A stretch of DNA of 64,000 bases from contig JAXHLS010000002.1 of assembly GCA_034522055.1 (NCBI GenBank), forward strand, positions 3,367,549 to 3,431,548, written 5' to 3'. The DNA comes from Gammaproteobacteria bacterium. Its GTDB lineage: Bacteria > Pseudomonadota > Gammaproteobacteria > JAABTG01. Of the stretch, positions 3,906-62,298 are shown piece after piece; position 1 is the first letter of the stretch; each line of letters opens with the position of its first letter. A program made the translations under genes and the position numbers. A model generated the notes under the pieces. That model ran no database searches. It saw only the letters and a program-made list of their open reading frames with translations, and was not told the origin of the DNA.

Positions 3906-4472
3906 CGAGAATCTCCTTTGTCGGCATCCTTCGAACCCCGACGAGTTGATGAATTTTCACCGCATTGTCAACCATCGGCCTCCCCGTCGCGTCTTCCGTC
4001 ATCTCCCCCTATCCCTTGTCTTGGCGAGAGCCTATGGTTCGTTGCGGAAAAACCAACCCGAAGGTGTGCCACGCCGCCATCATTTATCCGTGTGCATGAT
4101 ATGCTTAGCGCTCGCCGCGAGCGCAACATTCACCCACAGATTCTGCGCACGAGCCAAACGTAAGAATGCGTTTCAGCGGGCTCCGAATCGCGGCTTAGCC
4201 GAGCAACGGCCCGGCGACGCCGATGACGGTGATCAGCAGCCCGCGGGAGAGGTTGGTCACCACCACCGGGCGGGCGCGGGCCATGGCGCGCGCGGCTCGG
4301 GGCGTGTCCCCGTGTCTATGACGGAAACCAGCGGCGGTCACCGTGGTTGGCTGCACCGGGGCGGCTGCCTCCCCACCATGGTGTACCGGCATTCCCCACC
4401 CGGGGTGCGGGCTGCCCGAAGATGATAAGCTGACTGGCGATCCTCACCGTCGTTGACGCAACCCCTCTTCCA
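3906..4472. other. Intergenic stretch with no gene I can support
   Basis: About 570 bases separate the islet from the sulfotransferase operon. A minus-strand frame ending at 4195 (C-terminus ...NLSRGLLITVIGVAGPLLG) has a hydrophobic tail that could be the remnant of a membrane protein, but nothing upstream of it is convincing. The promoter of the sulfotransferase operon must lie near 4400-4472. I cannot point to clear -35/-10 boxes. Confidence 0.4.
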
Positions 4473-5729
4473 ATGCGTGAAGCCTTCATCCTCAGCCTGC
4501 GTTTGCACGGCCGCTGGCTCCGCGAGGCCCTTGGTCCACGGGGGCGGCAGGTGGCACCCCTCACTCCTTACCGGTTGCTGGTGCTGGCTCTCCTGCTGCC
4601 GGCTTACGCCCTGCTTCAGGCGGCACACTGGCTGGGCTTCGTGGCGGATGAACTGCTTTTCCCCGGCTACCGCAATGCCCCCGTGACGGCGCCGCTGTTC
4701 ATCACCGGTATCCCGCGCAGCGGCACCACCTTTGTCCACCGTGCACTGGCCGGGGACGAGGCGAGCTTCACTACCCTCCGCACCTGGGAAGCCTTGTTTG
4801 CACCCTCGGTAAGCGAGCGCCGGCTGCTCCGCGGCATCGCCCGGCTGGACGGGCTGCTGGGGCGTCCCCTGTGGCACCTGGCCGAGGCCGTCACGCGGCG
4901 CCTTACCGGCGGACTGGCCGCCATCCACGAGGTGGGCCTGGAGGCGGCGGAGGAGGACTATCTGACCCTGCTGCCGGCGGGGGGCTGCTTCATCCTGGTG
5001 CTGGCGTTCCCCGCCAGCCCTTCGCTGTGGCGCCTGGGGCGCCTGCAAGAGCTGCCGGCGCCGGAGCGGCGGGTGCTCGTCGACTTCTACCGGGCCTGCC
5101 TCCAGAAGCACCTCTATGCGGCGCCGCCGGGCCGCCGCCTGCTTTCCAAGAACGCGGCCTTCGGTTCCTGGCTCCCCGAACTGGCCACGCGCTTCCCCGA
5201 CGCCCGCTTCCTGGTTTGCGTGCGCGAGCCGGTGGAGGCCCTACGCTCCCAGCTGGGGGCGTTGCGAGGCGGCCTGGCGTTATTCGGCACCCTGCCGGCG
5301 GCCGATGCCGTGGCACGTGGGCTGAAGGCCAATGTCACCCACGCCTACGTAGTGCTGCGGGACTGTGGGCAGCGGCTTCCCGCCGGGCGCCTCGCGGTGA
5401 TCGACCAGGGGCGGCTGCGGGCGGCGCCCCGGGGTGAGCTGGAAGGGGCACTGGCGCGGCTGGGGGTGCCGGTGGTCCCGTCCCTGGAGGCAGCCCTGGA
5501 GGCGGCCCTGGAAGTAGCAAAGCGCCGGACGGGGGATGGTGAAGACAGGGGCCATCGTCACCCGCCGGTGACCGGCGGTGAGGACCCCGATCCGGGCCCG
5601 GTAGTCGCCCGCCTGCACCACGACCTGATCAACGGCATGGCCCCGCTGGGCCGTGAGTTCGACCATGAGTTGGACCATGAATTGGACCATGAGCCGAACA
5701 ATGAGCCGAGCAATGAGCCGCGCGATTGA
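4473..5729 (+). CDS. Sulfotransferase family protein
   Basis: The product (418 aa) is a PAPS-dependent sulfotransferase by its 5'-phosphosulfate loop (FITGIPRSGTTFVHRAL, about residues 75-91) and a later CVREP segment corresponding to the 3'-phosphate-binding region. The hydrophobic stretch LLVLALLLPAYALLQAAHWLGF (residues about 34-55, quoted in part by position) may anchor it to the membrane. The acceptor is unknown. The glycosyltransferase and deacetylase downstream suggest a surface glycan or glycolipid. The last about 20 residues are a degenerate Asp-His-Glu-Leu/Pro repeat produced by a 12-nt tandem repeat, which also forms the start region of the next gene in another frame. Confidence 0.85.
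   Translation: MREAFILSLRLHGRWLREALGPRGRQVAPLTPYRLLVLALLLPAYALLQAAHWLGFVADELLFPGYRNAPVTAPLFITGIPRSGTTFVHRALAGDEASFTTLRTWEALFAPSVSERRLLRGIARLDGLLGRPLWHLAEAVTRRLTGGLAAIHEVGLEAAEEDYLTLLPAGGCFILVLAFPASPSLWRLGRLQELPAPERRVLVDFYRACLQKHLYAAPPGRRLLSKNAAFGSWLPELATRFPDARFLVCVREPVEALRSQLGALRGGLALFGTLPAADAVARGLKANVTHAYVVLRDCGQRLPAGRLAVIDQGRLRAAPRGELEGALARLGVPVVPSLEAALEAALEVAKRRTGDGEDRGHRHPPVTGGEDPDPGPVVARLHHDLINGMAPLGREFDHELDHELDHEPNNEPSNEPRD
5653..5724 (+). repeat. 12-nt tandem repeat, six degenerate units, read in two frames
   Basis: Six consecutive 12-mers of the form (A/G)TGAGYYGNACC/G run from 5653 to 5724. In the sulfotransferase frame they encode a DHEL/NEP-type tail. In the +1 frame each unit begins with ATG (or GTG), giving the glycosyltransferase a series of six possible in-frame starts at 5653, 5665, 5677, 5689, 5701 and 5713. 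Change in unit number would alter both proteins without breaking either frame. Confidence 0.85.
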
Positions 5730-40527: not shown

Positions 40528-40548
40528 AATTATTACAGTGTAATAATT
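40528..40548. repeat. Perfect palindrome AATTATTACAGTGTAATAATT, copy 1
   Basis: A 21-bp palindrome centred on G40538. The same 19-bp core occurs again at 45247-45265. It is placed 38 bases outside the left end of the transposon and may be an operator of a lost toxin-antitoxin gene. Confidence 0.8.
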
Positions 40549-44186: not shown

Positions 44187-44474
44187 ATGATGCCGACGAC
44201 GACCGTTCGTTTGCCCGATGATCTCAAAAATCGTATTGCGCGTGCCGCAGAGCGGGTAGGCATGACCTCGCACGCGTTCATCCTCGATGCGATTGCCGAA
44301 CGCGTGGATGCGGAAGAGCGACGCAATGAATTCCACGAGACGGCAGGAGATCGCTATGCCCAGATCGTCGCATCGGGAGAGACGATCCCCTGGTCGGAGA
44401 TGCGTATCTATCTGGAAGATCGCGTAGCCGGTAAGAAGCCGACTCCTCCGGTGGCACGTAAGCTTTCCCGCTGA
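44187..44474 (+). CDS. Ribbon-helix-helix antitoxin
   Basis: A 95-residue protein with an N-terminal RHH fold (TTTVRLPDDLKNRIARAAERVGM, TSHAFILDAIAERV) and a C-terminal extension (YAQIVASGETIPWSEMRIYLEDRVAG) that embraces ParE-type toxins. It is paired with the toxin gene 12 bases downstream. Two ATG codons in a row at 44187 and 44190 are possible starts. An upstream TTG frame extension is not needed. The dyad at 44138-44155 is its likely operator. Confidence 0.9.
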   Translation: MMPTTTVRLPDDLKNRIARAAERVGMTSHAFILDAIAERVDAEERRNEFHETAGDRYAQIVASGETIPWSEMRIYLEDRVAGKKPTPPVARKLSR

Positions 44475-44486
44475 TCATTCGTCGCG

Positions 44487-44783
44487 ATGGCGCGCATCGA
44501 GCTGGCGGCGCAGGTTGCCGACGATTTCGATCGAATACTGGAACACCTCGCACAATACGAGGTCGCGGAGGCGGCAGCGCGTATCGATCAGATCATCCAG
44601 GCAATCAATGTGCTTGAATCCAATCCCCTGCTGGGACGCCCAGCTCGTCACGATGCCCGGGAACTGATCATCGGCCGACAATCTCGCGGTTATGTTGCCC
44701 TCTACCGCTATGTTCCTGAGGTCGATACCGTCTTCGTGTTGGCGATCAGAAGCCAGCGCGAGGCGGGTTACAAATTCCTCTAA
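44487..44783 (+). CDS. ParE/RelE family toxin
   Basis: A 98-residue toxin of the ParE/RelE superfamily (ARIELAAQVADDFDRILEHL, INVLESNPLLGRPARHDARELIIG, YVALYRYVPEVDTVFVLAIRSQREAGY). It follows the RHH antitoxin closely and appears intact. A second, truncated relative begins at 45092, so this locus has carried more than one such module. Confidence 0.9.
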   Translation: MARIELAAQVADDFDRILEHLAQYEVAEAAARIDQIIQAINVLESNPLLGRPARHDARELIIGRQSRGYVALYRYVPEVDTVFVLAIRSQREAGYKFL

Positions 44784-44821
44784 CGGACGAAAGAAGAAAT
44801 TCTCACGCAGCTGTCCCCTTA

Positions 44822-45068
44822 AGTCCACAGGCCTTGCCTGCCCTTGGCAAAGCGAGCCTTCTCACTCGCGTCGCCAGGGGCGGGACCGCGCTTGCGCGGT
44901 GACTGTGGGCCCCTGTGGTCAGGTGAAGCCGCGCCGGAGGCCCGCGGGAGCCTCTCGATGCAGCCCCTGTGCCAGGCGCATGCCTGGCGCCGGGGCTGCT
45001 CCGCCGCGACGCCTCCCGTCTCACTAGCGAGCGCAAGCGGGGTAGTGGCGCGGGCGGCGCTGCTGTAA
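44822..45068. repeat. 247-bp structured direct repeat, copy A
   Basis: The segment aligns without any gap to 45322-45568, exactly 500 bases to the right, at roughly 90 percent identity. It holds several nested stems. The outer stem is GTCCACAG with CTGTGGGC, next is CCTGCCCTTGGC with GCCAGGGGCGGG, followed by GCGAG/CTCGC and CCGCGC/GCGCGG. Another strong hairpin is GCAGCCCC...GCCAGGC-GCAT-GCCTGGC...GGGGCTGC. No convincing protein frame. A mobile hairpin element or structured RNA is possible. Confidence 0.85.
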
Positions 45069-45091
45069 ACGGCTGGGCTCGAAGTAGGAGC

Positions 45092-45190
45092 ATGGCGAAG
45101 GTTGCCATTCGGATCACCGAATCCGCACTTAGCGATCTGGAATCGATACGGACCTGGTACGCGGATTCGTGTCGTTCGAGTCTGGCGTAG
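45092..45190 (+). pseudogene. Truncated ParE/RelE-type toxin N-terminus
   Basis: The 32-codon frame MAKVAIRITESALSDLESIR(TWYAD) matches the beginning of plasmid-stabilisation toxins of the RelE/ParE family and then stops after an unrelated tail. ATG is preceded by AGTAGGAGC. It lies between the two 247-bp repeats and shows that a further toxin gene was lost here. Confidence 0.6.
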
Positions 45191-45246
45191 CGAGCGCCTG
45201 CTCGTCGTGCCGGACGAAGACTCGCCCTGACGTGCCGCCTCGGCAA

Positions 45247-45265
45247 ATTATTACAGTGTAATAAT
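45247..45265. repeat. Perfect palindrome ATTATTACAGTGTAATAAT, copy 2
   Basis: Identical to the core of the palindrome at 40528-40548, including the preceding AA/CAA. Nineteen bases, centred on G45256, between the two 247-bp repeats. Confidence 0.8.
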
Positions 45266-45321
45266 CGCCCGCCGGCCGGCCGCTCGAAGCCGTCCCTCAC
45301 TCCCGAATCAGCTGTCCACAG

Positions 45322-45568
45322 AGTCCACAGGCCTTGCCCGCCCTTGGCAAAGCGAGCCTTCTTACTCGCGTCGCCAAGGGCGGGACCGCGCCTGCGCGGT
45401 GCCTGTGGACCCCTGTGGTCAGGTGAAGCCGCGCCGCAGGCCCGCGGGAGCCCGTTGATGCAGCCCCTGTGCCAGGCGCATGCCTGGCGCCGGGGCTGCT
45501 CCGCCGCGAAGCCGCCCGTGTCACTAGCGAGCGCAAGCGGGGTAGTGACGCGGGCGGCGCTGCCGTAA
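45322..45568. repeat. 247-bp structured direct repeat, copy B
   Basis: Second copy of the repeat at 44822-45068. The long stems are perfect here: GTCCACAGGC with GCCTGTGGAC, and CCCGCCCTTGGC with GCCAAGGGCGGG. Where copy A differs, the pairs become G-T wobbles rather than mismatches, so pairing appears to be kept in both copies. Similarity begins a few bases earlier (CAGCTGTCC) but with a one-base shift. Confidence 0.85.
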
Positions 45569-46164
45569 TCGGCGCGGCGTGAGGGCCGATTTTTCCGATG
45601 ACGCGCGAATGACGCGTTCCTAAACTGCCGCCCACGATCGATTTCATCCGTGGCCACTGCGGCTCAGTGGCAAAGAGGGCGCCCACCCTCGACCTCTCAG
45701 GTCGAATCGGGCATGCGCGCCAAGGACCGGATCCAGCGCGCCGACCGAGAGGTCGCCGGTCCATCGTCAAAATCGTCGGCCCTCCGGTCGACTCATCCGG
45801 TGAGCTCCCAGCTCGCCATTCCACGATCCGCTCGATCCGGCCGCCGCAAGGCGCGTCGACGGGTGTTCTCTCAACATCGCGAAGATCCCATTCGCCCAAC
45901 TCAACGGAGGTAATGCGCTACAGCAAGACCATTCATTCAACTCAAGCAACACGAAGGAGGTGATGCGTTATCGAAAAGCGGCCCGCAACGGGCCCGTTGG
46001 TCTGCACCGGACCGATCCCCCACAGGGGAGAACCGGTGTTGCCTGCAACCAGGCATCTTCAGGTTGAACGGGAGTGGTGTCCCGTGACCCGTGCCTTGAT
46101 CTAGGGACCTGGGCGGCTACGGCCTGCCAGGTGGTCAGAAACACTTACCAGAGCATCGAACACT
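45569..46164. promoter_or_regulatory. Leader region of the ICE integrase gene with two tiny coupled ORFs
   Basis: The region has CGGAGGTA-ATG at 45913 opening a 16-codon frame (MRYSKTIHSTQATRRR). Its TGA overlaps the ATG at 45963 of a 34-codon frame (MRYRKAARNGPVG...), itself behind AAGGAGGTG. Hairpins such as GGCCCG-CAAC-GGGCC (45979-45994) and CACCGGACCG...GAACCGGTG follow. This could be a translated leader controlling the downstream integrase. Bases 45569-45900 hold no supported gene. Confidence 0.45.
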
Positions 46165-47031
46165 TTGAGAGACCTGAACTACCAACTCAAACAGCTGTGT
46201 CGCCACAACCGTGACGGTGGCTACGCGACCCAGCGCAACCGCGAGCGCCTGCTGTCGCTGATCGCGGACCAACTCCACGCGCTGGGCTTCCGGGGCATGG
46301 GCGCACAATCGCTGAAACCGAAACATGTGGAAGCGCTGGTGAACCGGTGGCAGACCGAGTCGCTCTCCATCGGCACCATCAAGAACCGGATGACGGTGTT
46401 GCGCTGGTGGGCCCAGAAGGTCAATCGACAGAATGTGATTGCACGCCAGAACGACCACTATGGGATCCCGGAGCGGACCTTCGTCAGCACCGAGTCGAAG
46501 GCGCGCCAGGTCGACGGCGCGGCACTCGATCGCATCAAGGATGCCCACGTCCGTATGAGCCTCGAGCTGCAGCAGGCCTTCGGCCTCCGGCGCGAGGAAG
46601 CCATCAAGTTCCAGCCGAGCTACGCGGATCGGGGCGATCAACTGGTGCTGAAGGACAGCTGGACCAAGGGCGGCAAGGCCCGCGAGATCCCCGTGCGCAC
46701 CCCGGCGCAGCGGGTGATCCTGGATCGCGCCCATCGCCTCGCGGGCCGCGGCTCGCTGATCCCGGCCGAGCGCAACTACCGGCAGCAGCTGCGCGTGTAC
46801 GAGCGACACACGGCGAATGCCGGTCTCTCCAAGCTGCACGGCCTCCGGCACGCCTATGCCCAGGGACGTTACGAGGAGCTCACCGGCTGGAAGGCACCCG
46901 CGGCCGGGGGCCCGACCTCGAGTTCTTTCACGCGAGAGCAGCGCGCCATCGACCGCGCGGCGCGGCTCGTCATCAGCCGCGAGCTCGGCCACGGACGCGA
47001 GCAGATATTGACCGTATATTTGTCGCGCTGA
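46165..47031 (+). CDS. ICE tyrosine recombinase (integrase domain-containing protein)
   Basis: A 288-residue tyrosine recombinase of the kind found in PFGI-1-class ICEs, with an N-terminal SAM-like domain (YQLKQLCRHNRDGGYATQRN) and a catalytic domain. Visible catalytic residues are R in QQAFGLRREEAIKF, HxxR in LHGLRHAYAQGRY, H in SRELGHGREQ and the nucleophile Y in LTVYLSR. The start is TTG at 46165. This family is present in addition to the main ICE integrase in related elements. It heads the conjugation gene block that follows. Confidence 0.85.
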   Translation: MRDLNYQLKQLCRHNRDGGYATQRNRERLLSLIADQLHALGFRGMGAQSLKPKHVEALVNRWQTESLSIGTIKNRMTVLRWWAQKVNRQNVIARQNDHYGIPERTFVSTESKARQVDGAALDRIKDAHVRMSLELQQAFGLRREEAIKFQPSYADRGDQLVLKDSWTKGGKAREIPVRTPAQRVILDRAHRLAGRGSLIPAERNYRQQLRVYERHTANAGLSKLHGLRHAYAQGRYEELTGWKAPAAGGPTSSSFTREQRAIDRAARLVISRELGHGREQILTVYLSR

Positions 47032-47122: not shown

Positions 47123-47569
47123 ATGAAACGAACCTACGCGCATCGCCGTCACCTTTTTCCCGTCTCCGCGTGCATGCTGGGGGCGCTGATTGCGTCCCTC
47201 GATGCCAATACGGCCGAGCTCACCGTCGCGCGCTACTCGACGGTGCAGCCGGCGCCGAGCCTGGCGCAACGGGATCCCCTCGCAGCGCCGGTGGTCTCGG
47301 TACTGCCGGCCTCCGTGATCCGGATCGGAGCAGCGGTCGAGACGCTGCTCGAATCATCCGGCTACCGTCTGTCGTCATCCCTTGCCGCCGACGCGGAACG
47401 AGCCGAACTTTTGGATCTGCCGCTGCCGGAAGCCCACCGCGCGCTCGGTCCGCTGCCGCTGCGCACGGCCTTGAGGATCCTCGCCGGACCCGCCTTCATG
47501 CTGGTCGAAGATCCCGTGCATCGGCTGATCTCGTTCGAGCGGTGCGACCAAGGGACGGGTAAGCGCTGA
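47123..47569 (+). CDS. ICE PilL-type protein (N-terminal domain family)
   Basis: A 148-residue exported protein. A signal sequence (LFPVSACMLGALIASLDAN) is followed by VARYSTVQPAPSLAQRDPL and by the domain AVETLLESSGYRLSSSL...LPEAHRALGPLPLRTALRIL...FMLVEDPVHRLISFE (read in parts). This matches the PilL-like proteins of PFGI-1 class conjugative elements (TIGR03748 type). It begins the T4SS (type G) gene block. The ATG overlaps the preceding frame slightly and is well placed. Confidence 0.8.
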   Translation: MKRTYAHRRHLFPVSACMLGALIASLDANTAELTVARYSTVQPAPSLAQRDPLAAPVVSVLPASVIRIGAAVETLLESSGYRLSSSLAADAERAELLDLPLPEAHRALGPLPLRTALRILAGPAFMLVEDPVHRLISFERCDQGTGKR

Positions 47570-49147: not shown

Positions 49148-49681
49148 ATGCGAATGGCGCGAACGGTAAGGATCCTCCCGGCGACCCTCGGCCTGTGGTC
49201 CGCTGTCGCCTGCGCAGAACTCACGGTCATCTACGACAGCGGCGCCACCGCGCCCCTCGCACCGTACCTGGAGGCCTTCAGTGAGCGGCCGCCGGCAGCC
49301 CCGGTCCAGGCACAGCCCGAAGTCAGTCTGGGCGCGGCCGATCTGACGCGCCTGCTCCCGATCCGCACGCCGGCGCTGACACCAGGGCCGGTGTCACCGC
49401 GTCCGTTATCTCTCCCCAATGGGGCGACGCTGCCGCGACCACTCTTCCTGATCGGCGCCGATCCCCTGTCGCGCCAGTGGCTGGAGACGCATCGGGAGCG
49501 GCTCGCGGCGATCCATGGGGTCGGCTTGCTGGTCAATGCGGAGTCCGCGGCAGATCTCGAGGCCATCGCCACCATCGCGCGGGGCCTGCCGATCCTGCCG
49601 GCGTCCGCGACGGACATCGCGGAGATCCTGGGCCTGAAGCACATCCCGGTCCTGATCTCCCGGCGCGGCATCGAGCAATGA
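49148..49681 (+). CDS. TIGR03765 (PFL_4695) family integrating conjugative element protein
   Basis: A 177-residue exported protein: signal peptide (ILPATLGLWSAVACA), LTVIYDSGATAPLAPYLEAF, and the C-terminal block LFLIGADPLSRQWLETHRER...GLLVNAESAADLEAI (read in parts). This matches the PFL_4695/TIGR03765 family of ICE proteins of unknown role. ATG 49148 (or 49154) is chosen because the signal peptide starts there. The stop overlaps the traD ATG (ATGA). Confidence 0.88.
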   Translation: MRMARTVRILPATLGLWSAVACAELTVIYDSGATAPLAPYLEAFSERPPAAPVQAQPEVSLGAADLTRLLPIRTPALTPGPVSPRPLSLPNGATLPRPLFLIGADPLSRQWLETHRERLAAIHGVGLLVNAESAADLEAIATIARGLPILPASATDIAEILGLKHIPVLISRRGIEQ

Positions 49682-51804
49682 GTCCGCATCCCGTCGAGGC
49701 GCTGCTGCGCCCGCCGGTGGAACTCTGGTCGGCCCTGGTCGCGGCAGCAACGGGAATGATGGCCCTGCTGGCGCCCTGGGCATTGATGATGCCGCCGGGT
49801 GTCGCCATGGCCGCGGCTGCGGCATTGTTCCTCTTGGCGTTTGTGCGTACCCGCCAGGCGTGGCGCGTCATCCGCTACCAGCGCAACATGCGCCGCCTGC
49901 CAAGCTACAAGCTCCGGGCCGATCGCATTCCCGTCAGCCGCCACAAGCTGTTTCTCGGGCGCGGCTTTCGCTGGACCCAGCGCCACACCCAGCGCCTGCG
50001 CGACACCCTCCGTCCCGAAGTGCAGCACTACGTTCAGCCGGGGACGCTCTACCAGTGGGCGCGGCGGAAAGAGGTCGCCTGGGAATCGGTGCCGATGCTC
50101 AGCGTCGTGGCCTGGATGCTGCGCCAGCCCAGAGGGTGGAATCCGCTCAAGCCCCTGCCGGCGGTCGGCGGCACCCCGGCACTGCATGCCGTGGAGCCCG
50201 ACGAGCAGGACGTCTGGATGGATCTCGGCGAGCGCGTCGGCCACACCCTGGTGCTCGGTACGACCCGGGTCGGTAAGACCCGGCTCGCCGAGATCCTGAT
50301 CACCCAGGATATCCGCCGCGGCGACGTGGTCATCGTCTTCGATCCGAAGGGCGATGCCGACTTGCTGCGCCGTGTCTACGCCGAGGCCAGGCGGGCCGGA
50401 CGCGCCAGGGACTTCACCCTGTTTCATCTCGGCTTCCCCGAGGTGTCGGCGCGGTACAACGCCATCGGCAGCTTCTCGCGGATCACCGAAGTGGCGACCC
50501 GGATCGCGAACCAGCTGCCCAGCGAGGGCAACTCGGCTGCCTTCAAGGAGTTCGCCTGGCGCTTCGTCAATATCATCGCCCGGGCGCTGGTGGCACTCGG
50601 CCGTCGGCCGGACTACCAGCAGATCCGTCGTTACATCAATGACATCGAGCCCCTGTTTGTCGAATACGCACGCGAGCACCTGCGGCGCAATGGTGAGGAG
50701 AGCTGGTCCGAGGCGGTCGAGGAGATCGCGGGCAAGATCAGTGAGCGTAACCTCTCATCGGCGCTGAAAGGGCGCGATCGGGACGCAATCGCCCTGATGC
50801 GCTACCTGCAGGCGCAGGATTTCTATGATCCGGTCCTCGATGGCCTCGTGTCGGCGTTCAAGTACGACAAGACCTATTTCGACAAGATCGTGAGCTCGGT
50901 CGGGCCCCTGATGGAGAAGCTGACCACCGGCAAGATCGCCGAGCTCATCTCGCCCGATTACCTGAACGGCGACGACAGCCGGCCGATCTTCGAGTGGCTG
51001 GACGTGATCCATCGCAAGGGGATCGTCTACGTCGGCCTCGATGCACTCACTGATACGACCGTCGCGAGTGCCGTAGGCAACTCCATGTTCGCCGATCTGG
51101 TCTCCGTGGCCGGTCACATCTACAAGCACGGTATTCACGACCCGGCCGAGGAAGGTGCCGCGCCGCAAACGGTCCATTTGCCGACGATCTCGATGCACGC
51201 CGACGAGTTCAACGAACTGATCGGGGACGAGTTCGTCCCCTTACTGAACAAGGCGGGTGGCGCCGGCTTTCAGGTGACCGCCTACACCCAGACCTGGTCC
51301 GACGTGGAGGCGAAGATCGGCAGCCGTGCCAAGGCGGGGCAGGTGGCCGGTAATTTCAACACCCTGATCATGCTGCGGGTCAAGGAACTCGCGACGGCCG
51401 AGATGCTTACCGACCAGCTGCCCCGGGTCGAAGCGTTCACGCTCATGAACGTCTCCGGCGTCAACGACTCGTCGGATCCCATGTCCGGCGTCGATTTCCA
51501 GTCGCGCAACGAGGATCGCATCAGCGTGTCCGAGGTGCCGATGCTCACGCCTGCCGAACTCGTCCGACTCCCGAAGGGCCAGGCCTTCGCGCTGCTCGAA
51601 GGCGGAGGACTCTGGAAGATCCGCATGCCGTTACCCGATGACAAAGGCGATCCAGCGATGCCGGCGAACCTGACGGCCATCGCCGATGAGATGGAGCGTA
51701 CCTACATCACCAACGACCACTGGTATCGGGCCAACGAGACCTGGTGGCACGCGGTTACCGATGGCGACCCTCCCGTCGCGGGGGAGGGCGACCGTGGGAT
51801 CTGA
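49678..51804 (+). CDS. traD: Type IV coupling protein TraD of the ICE
   Basis: A 708-residue VirD4/TraD-type coupling ATPase that brings DNA to the conjugation channel. Two N-terminal membrane helices (residues about 14-60) are followed by Walker A LGTTRVGKTRLAE, Walker B VVIVFDPKGDADLL and a late HADEFNELIGDEFVPL and QVTAYTQTWSD region typical of TraD in PFGI-1-class ICEs. It overlaps the TIGR03765 gene by four bases and the next by 11. No damage visible. Confidence 0.94.
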   Translation: MSPHPVEALLRPPVELWSALVAAATGMMALLAPWALMMPPGVAMAAAAALFLLAFVRTRQAWRVIRYQRNMRRLPSYKLRADRIPVSRHKLFLGRGFRWTQRHTQRLRDTLRPEVQHYVQPGTLYQWARRKEVAWESVPMLSVVAWMLRQPRGWNPLKPLPAVGGTPALHAVEPDEQDVWMDLGERVGHTLVLGTTRVGKTRLAEILITQDIRRGDVVIVFDPKGDADLLRRVYAEARRAGRARDFTLFHLGFPEVSARYNAIGSFSRITEVATRIANQLPSEGNSAAFKEFAWRFVNIIARALVALGRRPDYQQIRRYINDIEPLFVEYAREHLRRNGEESWSEAVEEIAGKISERNLSSALKGRDRDAIALMRYLQAQDFYDPVLDGLVSAFKYDKTYFDKIVSSVGPLMEKLTTGKIAELISPDYLNGDDSRPIFEWLDVIHRKGIVYVGLDALTDTTVASAVGNSMFADLVSVAGHIYKHGIHDPAEEGAAPQTVHLPTISMHADEFNELIGDEFVPLLNKAGGAGFQVTAYTQTWSDVEAKIGSRAKAGQVAGNFNTLIMLRVKELATAEMLTDQLPRVEAFTLMNVSGVNDSSDPMSGVDFQSRNEDRISVSEVPMLTPAELVRLPKGQAFALLEGGGLWKIRMPLPDDKGDPAMPANLTAIADEMERTYITNDHWYRANETWWHAVTDGDPPVAGEGDRGI

Positions 51805-55633: not shown

Positions 55634-55747
55634 TGTGCCACGAACGCTTGTCGGAGGCAAGCGATGCTGTACTGGAGATGAGGGTAAGCCCCTCGGAGCC
55701 GCCGGTCAGGCGGAGGCTCCAAACCGCCCAGTGCTGCTGCGTCTTAA
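55634..55747 (+). ncRNA. Remnant of the 5' part of a group II intron
   Basis: TGTGCCACGAACGC, GATGCTGTACTGGAGATG and CAGTGCTGCTGCGTC line up in order with the first about 110 bases of the intron at 59985 (TGTGTCACGAACAC, GGTGCTGTACTGAAGATG, CGGTGCTGCTGCGTT). The copy is cut off by the IS5-type element at 55748. No intron 3' part is found on the other side. Confidence 0.75.
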
Positions 55748-56995
55748 GGGAACTTCTAAAAATACCGCGCCAAATGTGAGATCATAGGCGGCATCTTGGA
55801 ACGTTAGGATTTGCCCATGCAGCCCGGCTTTTTCGATCTGGATAACCGTTATCAGGAACTGGAGAAACTCGGGGACCCATTGCCGACAATCGAGCGGGTA
55901 GTCGACTGGGAAAGTTTCCGCCCGATGCTGGAAAAGATTCACCAGAAGACGCGCAAGAGCAATGCCGGGCGCAAGCCCTACGATGTCGTGCTGATGTTCA
56001 AGGTCCTGGTGCTTCAGCACCTGTACAACCTGGCCGACGAACAGACCGAATATCAGATCCAGGATCGCTATTCCTTCTGCCGGTTCCTCGGTCTGACGCC
56101 GGAAGGTCGGGTTCCGGATGCCCGGACCATCTGGCTGTTCCGGGAACGGCTCAAGGAGCTGGAGCTGGTGGAAACGCTTTTCGCACAGTTGTCCAAGCAG
56201 ATAGAGGGATCGGGATACATCGCGCGACGGGGCCAAATCGTGGACGCGAGCATCGTGGCGGCGCCGCGTCAGCGCAATCGCCGGGAAGAGAATGCCCTGG
56301 TCAAGGAAGGCAAGACGCCGGAAGCGTGGCAGGACAAGCCCGCCAAGCTGCGGCAGAAGGATGTCGAGGCCCGCTGGACGAAGAAACACGGGAAGACCTA
56401 CTACGGCTACAAGAACCACGTGGGTATCGACAATGAACACAAGCTTGTCCGACGCTTCGGGGTGACGGATGCGGCGGTCCATGACAGCCAGGTTCTTGAC
56501 AGGCTGCTCGACCCCATGAACACGAGTGCCGACGTGTGGGCGGACTCGGCCTATCGCTCCAAAGAGCGGGAAGCGGCACTGAAGGAACGGGGCTACCGAA
56601 GCCATATTCAGACCAAGGGCACGGCGAAGCGGCCGCTGTCGGAGCGCGCCATCAAGGCCAACCATCGGCGAGCCAAGGTTCGTGTACGGGTTGAGCATAT
56701 CTTTGCTGCCCAAACTGCGATGGGCGGGATGCTGGTACGCACTATTGGATTGGCTCGAGCGCGGGTGAAGATTGGCATGATGAATATCGTCTATAACATT
56801 CGGCGACTGGCCTACCTGGAGACGCGGCGTGCATTGAGCAGCCCATAGAGGACATCACAAGCTCGGTTAGGCATGGCACGAACGGGAATATCCCGGTATT
56901 GCCCTTTCCATAATCGCGACATGATATTCATCCAGGGTGGCGAATGCCCGTCCTTTAGCCGCGAGATGCAAAAGCAGGGATTAATAGAGGTTCCC
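55748..56995 (+). mobile_element. IS5-family insertion sequence
   Basis: The ends GGGAACTTCTAAAAAT and, inverted, GGGAACCTCTATTAAT agree at most positions and enclose a single transposase gene. The left flank is an intron remnant; the right flank is only six bases from the end of the ISKra4-type element. No clean target duplication is visible, probably because of later rearrangement. Confidence 0.8.
55817..56848 (+). CDS. IS5 family transposase
   Basis: A 343-residue DDE transposase of the IS5 family: N-terminal MQPGFFDLDNRYQELEKLGD, catalytic region GQIVDASIVAAPRQRN (first Asp), FGVTDAAVHDSQVLDRLL and VWADSAYRSKEREAAL (second Asp), then VRVRVEHIFAAQ with the Glu. It appears intact. ATG 55817 is used; an upstream TTG at 55811 adds two residues. 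Confidence 0.93.
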   Translation: MQPGFFDLDNRYQELEKLGDPLPTIERVVDWESFRPMLEKIHQKTRKSNAGRKPYDVVLMFKVLVLQHLYNLADEQTEYQIQDRYSFCRFLGLTPEGRVPDARTIWLFRERLKELELVETLFAQLSKQIEGSGYIARRGQIVDASIVAAPRQRNRREENALVKEGKTPEAWQDKPAKLRQKDVEARWTKKHGKTYYGYKNHVGIDNEHKLVRRFGVTDAAVHDSQVLDRLLDPMNTSADVWADSAYRSKEREAALKERGYRSHIQTKGTAKRPLSERAIKANHRRAKVRVRVEHIFAAQTAMGGMLVRTIGLARARVKIGMMNIVYNIRRLAYLETRRALSSP

Positions 56996-59464: not shown

Positions 59465-62298
59465 ATGCAACGCAGCTTTTCCGACCTGGAGTACGCCGCC
59501 AAGAAGAAGCAGACCCGCCGCGACCGTTTCCTGGCCGATATTGAGGCGGTGACGCCCTGGCAGGACCTGGTGGCAGAGCTGGAGACGTTCTATCCCAAGA
59601 GCGGCCGGCGGGGCCGACCGCCCATCGGCTTGGAGCGGATGCTGCGGATGTACGTGGCCCAGCAGTGCTTCGGGCTCTCTGACGAGGGCATTGAGGACGC
59701 GGTCTACGACAGCCAGTCCATTCGCCGCTTCGTGGGCATCGACCTGTCGCGGGAGTCGGCGCCGGACGCGACCACGCTGCTCAAGTTCCGGCACCTGTTG
59801 GAGACGCACGGGCTCATGCGCAAGGTGTTCGAGGCTATCAACGGACACCTGGCCGAGAAAGGCCTGTTGCTCCGGGAGGGGACCATTCTGGACGCGACGC
59901 TGATTGCGGCGCCGCCGTCCACCAAGAACCGCGAGAAGGCCCGCGACCCGGAGATGCACCAGGCCAAGAAGGGCAATCAGTGGTGTGTGTCACGAACACA
60001 GGCGGCAGACCTGTGGTGCTGTACTGAAGATGGGAGTAGGCCTCCCGAAGCCGGCCTGCAGGGGCAGGCTTCAAACCACCCGGTGCTGCTGCGTTCAAAA
60101 GACGTGGTGGTGAGCGACCGGGCGAAAGTCACCCCTTGAGGGGTGGCAGGTGGGTATTGAGAAGATGAGCGAAAGCAAACCGTCCGACGACGCATCGTTA
60201 TGCCCAAGACGCTGTCGAAACGGAGGTGGACCATTGGCTTCAGGACGAATCGGGGCGCTACCTGCTTACGGACCCGATGGCAGCCGGTGTATAGGCGGCA
60301 TGATCTCAATACAGGCTTTGGTACGGAACGTGAGAACCTTGTTCCAGATGCGAAGGGAAATGACAAGTGGCCAACACCATGAGGAAGAATACCGATGCTG
60401 GAGCGAGGGGCGGAGCCTCCCGTAGTAGTGACGAAGTCCCTGTAATGGGGGTGGAGCGAAGGGGGGGCGTTATCCTGCCGACGAATGTTGCCAACCTCCG
60501 GGGATGAGCAGCGTGAACTCGGCGAAACCTTACGGCATAGCGAAACGCACGGTATGGGAGGCATACCAGCAGGTCAAGGCCAACTGCGGTGCTGCCGGCA
60601 TCGACGATGAAACCATCGCCGACTTCGAACAGGACCTGTCGAAGAATCTGTACAAGCTGTGGAACCGGATGTCGTCGGGGTCATACTTCCCGCCGCCGGT
60701 CAAGCAAGTGGAGATTCCCAAGGCATCAGGAGGCATGCGCACGCTGGGAGTGCCCACGGTTTCTGACCGTGTCGCGCAAACCGTCGTCAAGCTTCTCATC
60801 GAGCCAGAGCTGGACTCGATCTTCCATCCGGACTCTTATGGGTATCGGCCGGGGCGGTCGGCGAAGCAAGCCGTGGCGATCACTCGTGAGCGCTGCTGGC
60901 GATATGACTGGGTGGTGGAGTTTGATATCAAGGCAGCCTTTGATCAGATTGACCACGGGCTGCTGATGAAGGCGGTGCGCGCCCACATCAAGGAAGACTG
61001 GATTCTTCTGTACATCGAAAGGTGGCTGGTTGCGCCGTTCGAAACAGAGGACGGCGCTCGCCTTCCACGCGAACGCGGCACTCCGCAGGGCGGAGTGGTC
61101 AGTCCCATCCTGATGAACCTGTTCATGCACTACGCCTTCGACACGTGGATACAACGCACCAGCCCGAACTGTCCGTTCGCCCGGTACGCAGATGACGCGG
61201 TGGTTCACTGCCGCAGTCGGAAGCAGGCGGAGTACGTGATGCGAGCCATCGCGTCACGGTTGGCGGACTACGGGTTGACGATGCATCCTGACAAATCGAA
61301 TGTCGTGTACTGCAAGGACAGCAACCGCACCGAACAGCATCCTCACGTGAGCTTTACCTTCCTGGGCTTTACGTTCAGGCCGAGGAAGGCCCACAGCAAG
61401 CAAGACCAGCTCTTCACGAGCTTCCTGCCGGGAGCCAGTGCAGATGCCTTGCGGCGGATGCGGCAGGCGGTGCGCCGTTGGCGACTCAATCGCCAGACGC
61501 ACGTGACGCTGGCCGAGGTGGCTCGGCTCTACAACCCAGTGATACAGGGGTGGTGGCAATACTATGGCGCGTTCTACCGAACCGCCATGCTCGGCATCTT
61601 CCAGCACATCGATAGAGCGCTTGAACGTTGGGCCCGACGAAAGTACAGGGCTCTTCACCGCCGCAAGCGGGCCAGCGTTGACTGGCTGGCCAAGATCCGT
61701 GCATCAGCACCACTGTTGTTCTATCACTGGCGCGTAGCCGGACCACAGGTTGGATAACGGGAGCCGTATGACGCGAGAGTGTCACGTACGGTTCTGTGAG
61801 CGGCTGCGGGGGCAGTTCCCGCGGCCGACTCGCCACTTCGGGATGAAGGCGCATATCGGCGTCGATGCGGACTCTGGCCTGGTACACACCCTCGTGGGCA
61901 CGGCCGCCAATGTGGCCGACGTGAGTCAGACCCACGCGTTGCTGCATGGTGAGGAGACGGATGTGCTCGGGGATGCGGGCTATCAAGGCATGGAGAAACG
62001 GGCCGAGACGAAGGACCTGGACGTCAGCTGGCATGTGGCCATGCGTCCCGGCAAGCGCAAGGCGTTGGGCGCTGACCCGGTGGACCAGCTGCGCGAACAG
62101 TACGAGCGGGCGAAGGCGCAGCTGCGAGCAAAGGTGGAGCACCCGTTTCATGTCATCAAGAACCTCTTCCGTCACCGCAAGGCCCGGTACCGCGGGCTGG
62201 CCAAGAACACGGCCCAGCTCTATGTCCTGTTCGGCTTGGCCAATCTCTTCATGGCGCGGGGGCGATTACTCGCCCTCGATACCCGTGATCCGTCCTGA
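59465..62298 (+). CDS. IS5 family transposase, split by a group II intron (exons 59465-59984 and 61835-62298)
   Basis: Exon 1 encodes MQRSFSDLEYAAKKKQTRRD to AKKGNQW plus the first base of the next codon. Exon 2 supplies the rest, starting YFGMKAHIGVDADSGLVHTL. Joined, they give 984 bases, a 327-residue uninterrupted transposase with all catalytic parts (GTILDATLIAAPPSTKN; GDAGYQGMEKR; AKVEHPFHVIKNLF). The splice exactly rebuilds the family motif GNQWYFGMK, so the gene is functional only if the intron is removed. Confidence 0.88.
59985..61834 (+). ncRNA. Group II intron with reverse transcriptase
   Basis: The intron begins GTGTGTCACG (consensus GUGYG) and ends CCGACTCGCC. Domain V is the 34-nt hairpin GAGCCGTATGACGCGAGAGT...ACGGTTC at 61761-61794 with the catalytic AGC-like base and bulge region of bacterial introns. 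Domain VI follows (GTGAGCGGCTGCGGG...). An RT/maturase gene lies in domain IV. Removing it restores the IS5 transposase frame, which fixes both boundaries. Confidence 0.88.
60504..61757 (+). CDS. ltrA: Group II intron reverse transcriptase/maturase
   Basis: A 417-residue intron-encoded protein. RT domains are seen in QVEIPKASGGMRTLGVPTVSD, PDSYGYRPGRSAKQAV, FDIKAAFDQIDH, RGTPQGGVVSPIL and the catalytic FARYADDAVVH. The maturase (X) domain follows with NPVIQGWWQYYGAFYR and ALERWARRKY. No C-terminal HNH endonuclease domain is present, which fits bacterial introns that use nascent DNA strands as primer. The gene lies in domain IV and ends just before domain V. It appears intact. Confidence 0.94.
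   Translation: MSSVNSAKPYGIAKRTVWEAYQQVKANCGAAGIDDETIADFEQDLSKNLYKLWNRMSSGSYFPPPVKQVEIPKASGGMRTLGVPTVSDRVAQTVVKLLIEPELDSIFHPDSYGYRPGRSAKQAVAITRERCWRYDWVVEFDIKAAFDQIDHGLLMKAVRAHIKEDWILLYIERWLVAPFETEDGARLPRERGTPQGGVVSPILMNLFMHYAFDTWIQRTSPNCPFARYADDAVVHCRSRKQAEYVMRAIASRLADYGLTMHPDKSNVVYCKDSNRTEQHPHVSFTFLGFTFRPRKAHSKQDQLFTSFLPGASADALRRMRQAVRRWRLNRQTHVTLAEVARLYNPVIQGWWQYYGAFYRTAMLGIFQHIDRALERWARRKYRALHRRKRASVDWLAKIRASAPLLFYHWRVAGPQVG

Follow-up and report, generated by a model that had tools for sequence, protein, structure and literature searches.

Introduction

What is a long, hairpin-rich non-coding sequence doing, twice over, near a tyrosine recombinase gene of a conjugative element, and is its structure selected as a folded single strand or as a plain DNA palindrome? 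The sequence in question lies in a 64,000-nt stretch of DNA from a gammaproteobacterium (assembly GCA_034522055.1, contig JAXHLS010000002.1, positions 3,367,549–3,431,548, forward strand), the whole of which is here termed the window. The original prediction, made from the letters alone, was of an unrecognised 247-bp element present in two copies, with nested stems under selection for RNA structure.

Two kinds of component that bear on the question are already known from single cases, namely relaxases resembling tyrosine recombinases and an RNA needed for transfer. In the island SGI1 (PMC6414798, PMC9299015) the GC-rich oriT contains three inverted repeats, the interval from oriT to mpsA encodes an essential RNA, and MpsA, which resembles tyrosine recombinases, is a proposed atypical relaxase. 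We describe the non-coding region, its distribution and the genes that accompany it, and then weigh the functions that it might have. Features are mapped in Table 1.

Table 1. Features at and around the repeat, in window coordinates
Feature	Position	Strand	Basis or comment
RHH/CopG-like antitoxin gene, neighbour outside the module	44187–44474	+	Pfam PF01402
ParE-like toxin gene	44487–44783	+	Pfam PF05016
w1, degenerate first copy (A+B+C)	44808–45078	+	dyad model, 51.1 bits; 6 of 9 changed pairs broken
19-bp palindrome ATTATTACAGTGTAATAAT, left edge of conserved region	45247–45265	.	probable operator or partition site
Domain A, two hairpins within a long closing stem (three-way junction)	45309–45423	+	alignment of 22 copies and relatives; z −10.4
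Domain B, hairpin, ACAGG...CCTGGCG conserved in relatives	45460–45499	+	z −7.9
Domain C, dyad hairpin GTCACTA...TAGTGAC, proposed oriT core	45511–45558	+	conservation, covariation, gene association
Conserved AAGGAGGTGAT, Shine-Dalgarno-like, 5′ of R2	45954–45964	+	alignment A4
Structured RNA (model R2), sgm-sRNA-like candidate; AACACTTACC at 46140–46149	45993–46153	+	covariation model
Tyrosine recombinase PF12834+PF12835, candidate relaxase	46165–47031	+	Pfam
PilL2, PFGI-1-class ICE, start of transfer operon	47123–47569	+	TIGR03748
ICE protein TIGR03759	47807–48586	+	profile match
ICE protein, PFL_4695 family	49154–49681	+	TIGR03765
TraD coupling protein, real start probably near 49678	49477–51804	+	TIGR03754

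The repeat and its copies

The two copies (44822–45068 and 45322–45568) start 500 nt apart and have no indels, just as had been predicted; they align at 93% identity over 257 nt, and the homologous stretch is slightly longer than the repeat itself (about 44808–45073 against 45309–45573). Stems do occupy most of the element: domains A, B and C of the second copy together fold at −175.7 kcal/mol (z = −11.3, 60 dinucleotide shuffles). The further claim, that differences between the copies keep the stems paired, stands for hairpin I (45337–45384), where both changes still pair, but fails for hairpin C, the dyad, where two of three changed pairs are broken. Nine of the 18 inter-copy differences fall on consensus pairs; three of these give G-U and six break the pair.

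The dyad model scores the first copy at 51.1 bits and the second at 73.2 bits, and the dyad of the first copy has lost bases that are invariant across the 55 aligned dyads (alignment A3). This copy, w1, starts 25 nt after the ParE-like toxin gene, and two shortened copies of this ParDE-linked form are found elsewhere in the genome. It is best read as an old duplicate of the hairpin domains, in decay beside a toxin–antitoxin pair. Because the first copy is decaying, the differences between the two copies cannot carry the argument for structural selection that was originally built on them. The idea of structural selection, as opposed to a plain DNA palindrome, nonetheless finds support in the larger alignments described below (covariation, G-U bias and core variants), and it holds up that the selected structure is single-stranded, either as RNA or as transferred DNA.

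The search for more copies yielded six full or nearly full ones, plus several fragments, in the same genome. Its ten dyads are accompanied by R2 in seven cases, and the other three adjoin the same ParDE pair. A single full-length relative, 73% identical, was found in another family of the same class among 95 genomes searched (own included). DNA searches of plasmid and phage records gave no relative of the repeat; at the protein level, the phage records gave one 30% match. In an Rfam search of the window no family matched the element over its gathering score, and a search of 44700–46180 up to E 5 returned only microRNA and psaA matches, far below their cut-offs.

The hairpin region

With the second copy begins a non-coding region of ∼850 nt (about 45309–46153), conserved in PFGI-1-class ICEs directly upstream of the tyrosine recombinase gene, in which hairpin domains A, B and C are followed by a structured RNA. 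Domains A+B+C were aligned from 22 of 37 extracted sequences. The dyad was aligned separately, and the covariation sought in a larger alignment is present there: across 48 distinct dyads 97.5% of cells are paired, with a covariation score of 0.219 against 0.094 for shuffled alignments (reached in 0/500 shuffles). Since loci entered alignment A3 by matching a strict core pattern (55 of 70), its core columns pair by virtue of that selection, and the evidence for the dyad comprises only its outer pairs and the core variants. Two outer pairs are changed on both sides in 10/48 and 23/48 rows, and pairing persists through the core changes GTCACT, GTCCCT and GTCATT. The dyad ends read GCG-N-AGC in 42/55 and GCG-NN-AGC in 7/55.

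Wobble pairs favour the plus (gene-sense) strand, with G-U to A-C cells at 35:1 in the dyad, 105:19 in A+B+C and 184:94 in the R2 RNA, although the structures behind both the wobble and the covariation counts came in part from predictions on these alignments, made on the sense strand, which favours that strand by design. Reverse complements fold with weaker energy, by only a small gap in R2 (−88.2 versus −86.1), and the covariation value of R2 is larger on the minus strand.

At the left edge of the region stands a palindrome whose core, TTACANTGTAA, occurs twice in the window (40533–40543 and 45251–45261) and also at G000:C2:3133153-3133229 in the same genome, which has 19 such sites against one for a reversed-pattern control. 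Several mark ICE operon starts, and once there are three tandem copies 33 bp apart; the flanking bases vary between species yet remain palindromic. Its place in intact ICEs, upstream of the hairpins and flanked by STY4528 and PFL_4669, makes it look like an operator or a partition site, perhaps parS-like. Integron-like cassettes bounded by TTACANTGTAA were considered and rejected on account of that place, although homology does begin at the palindrome.

The structured RNA R2

The R2 model has 157 positions in seven helices and ends ∼11 nt before the gene start in nearly every locus. Its covariation score is 0.398 against 0.192 shuffled (0/500), and for 31 of its 43 pairs at least one row has both partners changed. 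Folded singly, the window sequence is not unusual (z −1.55), so the support for R2 is its covariation. Alignments A4 and A5 hold 56 and 53 of the 70 loci, near-duplicate, interrupted and too divergent rows having been removed by eye. Hairpins and R2 both covary across dozens of gammaproteobacterial loci.

The model finds seven copies in its own genome, matches in 10/274 genomes of the class at E ≤ 0.001 (own included) and 87 matches over 89 loci searched, seed loci among them. Of the 20 plasmid loci, 10 were searched with the model; it matches those of Pleionea (E 1.3e-6) and Halioglobus (E 1.3e-4), and others gave only weak matches around the end motif AACACTTACC. That motif, as AA[CA]ACTNACC, lies near the gene start in only 12/20 plasmids, and Rhizobiaceae plasmids have GGTCA..AAAACTTACC at the same place. 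Three own-genome copies do not precede a recombinase gene; two of these (G000:C2:729138-729307 and 3555404-3555573) lie upstream of flhDC-like activator genes.

The recombinase and its genomic setting

The host element is a PFGI-1-class ICE. Besides the genes of Table 1, a relative (L056) has ParB, STY4528, PFL_4669, a ParM-like protein and STY4534 upstream. A P4-like integrase, encoded some 64 kb further on (L191), is probably the ICE's own, and because the ICE has this separate integrase, the PF12835 recombinase is unlikely to be its integration enzyme. Residues R142, K168, H225, R228, H276 and Y285 are invariant in 26/26 aligned recombinases. Since all six catalytic residues are kept, the protein may be capable of ordinary recombination. 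Single-sequence structure prediction was poor (pLDDT 48.7) and was left unused, and a PDB profile search matched one designed protein. Elsewhere in the genome, a recombinase copy (G000:C2:3140946-3141737) matches only to residue 265 and seems to be without the in-frame catalytic C-terminal tyrosine. Group II intron domains also occur in the window (55680–55750, 60032–60151 and 61759–61834).

Association of hairpin C with the recombinase gene

Genome contigs were scanned with three aligned recombinases, giving 80 loci; upstream regions from 67 of these, together with the window, L021 and L025, make up a set of 70. Hairpin C is present in 65. The strict core GTCACT[AG]...TAGTGAC was found in 55, at 502–822 nt from the gene. 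Eight of the 15 strict-negative loci have the compensated core GTCCCT...AGGGAC, two have GTCACT...AGTGAC farther upstream, and five ICE loci of the 70 have no hairpin C by these pattern tests.

Plasmid homologues of the recombinase, down to about 42% identity, have the hairpin upstream in 15 of 20 fetched records, whereas shuffled upstream sequences gave such a hairpin in 0/1000 trials. The bearers include plasmids of Acinetobacter, Vibrio, Shewanella, Salmonella, Pasteurellaceae and Rhizobiaceae, and three Pasteurellaceae plasmids have GTCATT...AATGAC as core. The hairpin is absent from 5/20 plasmids examined, one of which offers only 294 nt upstream. Arm spacing is 14–18 in ICEs and 10–29 in plasmids, variability that fits a hairpin. 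Across classes hairpin C has a conserved place 5′ to a single gene family, and it accompanies that gene onto tiny plasmids with no transfer operon.

One such PF12835 gene, at 3983–4852 of a Shewanella plasmid (NZ_CP051531.1, L195), has the hairpin upstream and adjoins mcr-4.3; in the published account it is read as a phage integrase (PMC9769806).

Relaxases and coupling proteins

MOBH TraI (TIGR03760), the one relaxase family searched, was found in none of the nine leader-bearing genomes. The profile scored over its cut-off in three of 26 further genomes of named loci (six at E ≤ 0.001) and in 11 of a class sample of 143 (29 matching); some of the genomes are incomplete. Fourteen class genomes have TraD over its cut-off; seven of them also have TIGR03760 over cut-off, in five cases within 2 kb of TraD by listed positions. 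MOBH relaxases are rare in the leader-bearing genomes and in those of the named loci.

The recombinase gene was found on 120 plasmid records, typed as non-mobilizable (80), conjugative (28) or mobilizable (12). A VirD4/TraD-like coupling-protein gene lies 3′ of it on pSIO1, on Pleionea and Psychrobacter plasmids and on one Acinetobacter record (by Pfam for three), and several of the homologue plasmids bear other relaxases (MobQ, MobA/MobL, MOBF, MOBP).

Discussion

We propose, with a probability of roughly 60%, that domains A-B-C are an oriT, that R2 is its companion RNA and that the PF12835 protein is a relaxase of tyrosine-recombinase type. The proposal is drawn from the order of the parts, which equals that in the SGI1 and MobK cases. 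Computation further supplies in its favour the conservation, the covariation, the strand bias, the association of hairpin C with the gene and the rarity of the MOBH relaxase. Against it weigh the complete catalytic set of the recombinase, the ICE loci and plasmids that lack hairpin C, the end motif found in only part of the plasmids, the other relaxases on several homologue plasmids and the three R2 copies with no recombinase gene after them. Hairpin region, structured RNA and tyrosine-recombinase-like gene all point in the same direction, as in an SGI1-type module, and the recombinase domain has its nucleophile, as in the class of MOBM, MobK and MpsA. The second copy (45309–45562) would then be the hairpin-rich oriT of this PFGI-1-class ICE, and the ∼160-nt RNA would be the partner of that oriT. 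The recombinase would recognise hairpin C, nick near it by means of its tyrosine, remain bound to the cut strand, presumably the one transferred, and pass it to TraD. R2 might aid the assembly or coupling of the transfer complex, as has been proposed for the sgm-sRNA of SGI1.

Likenesses and differences with respect to known systems are as follows. In SGI1 a hairpin-rich oriT, sgm-sRNA and mpsA follow one another, the RNA ending by the gene start, a likeness to our region in part order; FlhDC-family activators are likewise encoded in the same island. SGI1 has a separate core-binding-like protein, MpsB, whereas here PF12834 forms the N-terminus of the same protein and the next gene is PilL2, and SGI1 relies on the transfer apparatus of an IncC plasmid while the present ICE has its own. 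MobK of pIGRK is also a tyrosine-recombinase-like relaxase with a site of imperfect inverted repeats, oriT1, directly upstream; it has no core-binding domain and the consulted portion of the paper describes no RNA (PMC8152469), in contrast to the PF12834 domain and R2 found here. TcpM of pCW3 (MOBM) resembles our candidate as a relaxase related to tyrosine recombinases, but according to a review (PMC12857230) it can dispense with the remaining catalytic residues, which here are all invariant. ICEs of the PFGI-1/ICEclc class share ParB, STY4528, PFL_4669, STY4534, PilL2 and TraD with this one, but have the MOBH TraI that was not found in the nine leader-bearing genomes searched. PF12835 is among the nucleases that one study considered as possible relaxase substitutes in marine elements (PMC11104534). 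Our search of the literature found no paper naming this hairpin or R2, or describing a family-wide hairpin plus covarying RNA tied to PF12834/PF12835.

The whole region might instead contain no oriT and act as an extended, structured 5′ leader that controls transcription or translation (by antitermination, for example) of the transfer operon and the flhDC-like genes. The bias to the sense strand, with G-U over A-C, and the copies before flhDC-like genes keep this reading in play, and the ∼11-nt gap between R2 and the start codon at almost all loci and the conserved AAGGAGGTGAT on the 5′ side of R2 would suit a leader; we nevertheless consider it less probable than an oriT, as hairpin C travels with the recombinase to tiny plasmids that have no transfer operon, and a leader leaves the missing MOBH relaxase unexplained. 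Less likely again is that the PF12835 protein resolves multimers or exchanges cassettes by recombining hairpin C as a duplex site. Duplex recombination cores have a fixed overlap of 6–8 bp, and it is the variable arm spacing (10–29 nt) that makes such a site improbable, along with the G-U polarity, the lack of any cassette array seen and an R2 RNA that would go unaccounted for, even though the complete catalytic residues in 26/26 proteins, the joint movement of hairpin and gene, and the ParB and ParM-like partition proteins encoded by ICE relatives would all suit it.

Several copies per genome could suggest a dispersed repeat (MITE, REP or attC-like) with no function for the element. We give this very little credence: copies are confined to ICE contexts, seven of the ten own-genome dyads go with R2 while the other three sit beside one ParDE pair, and the position upstream of a single gene family is conserved across classes. 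Nothing was found in support of MITE or attC-like membership, which the original prediction had named as the finding that would count against it. Integrons have a cassette array with IntI, and attC sites a GTTRRRY core; here inspection of 45511–45558 shows no GTTRRRY, the gene is PF12834/PF12835 and there is no array, and the attC reading was rejected. A single-strand promoter of Frpo type has its structure selected on the template strand, and was rejected because of strand polarity, the wobbles favouring the gene-sense strand (on which the structures were predicted).

To return to the oriT reading, it may extend well beyond this locus. More tentatively, and at somewhat less than even odds, we suggest a widespread module that serves relaxase-less ICEs as well as many small alpha- and gammaproteobacterial plasmids. 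Its PF12834/PF12835 recombinase would recognise a covarying oriT hairpin, and a conserved structured RNA would be a working part of the transfer complex; relaxosomes with an RNA would then be a general phenomenon, of which SGI1 is one instance. If the oriT reading is right, many plasmids classed as ‘non-mobilizable’ (80 of the 120 with the gene) and seemingly relaxase-less ICEs would hide a transfer module that can be recognised, and for the sgm-sRNA of SGI1, so far a puzzle, there would be a structural counterpart supported by covariation.
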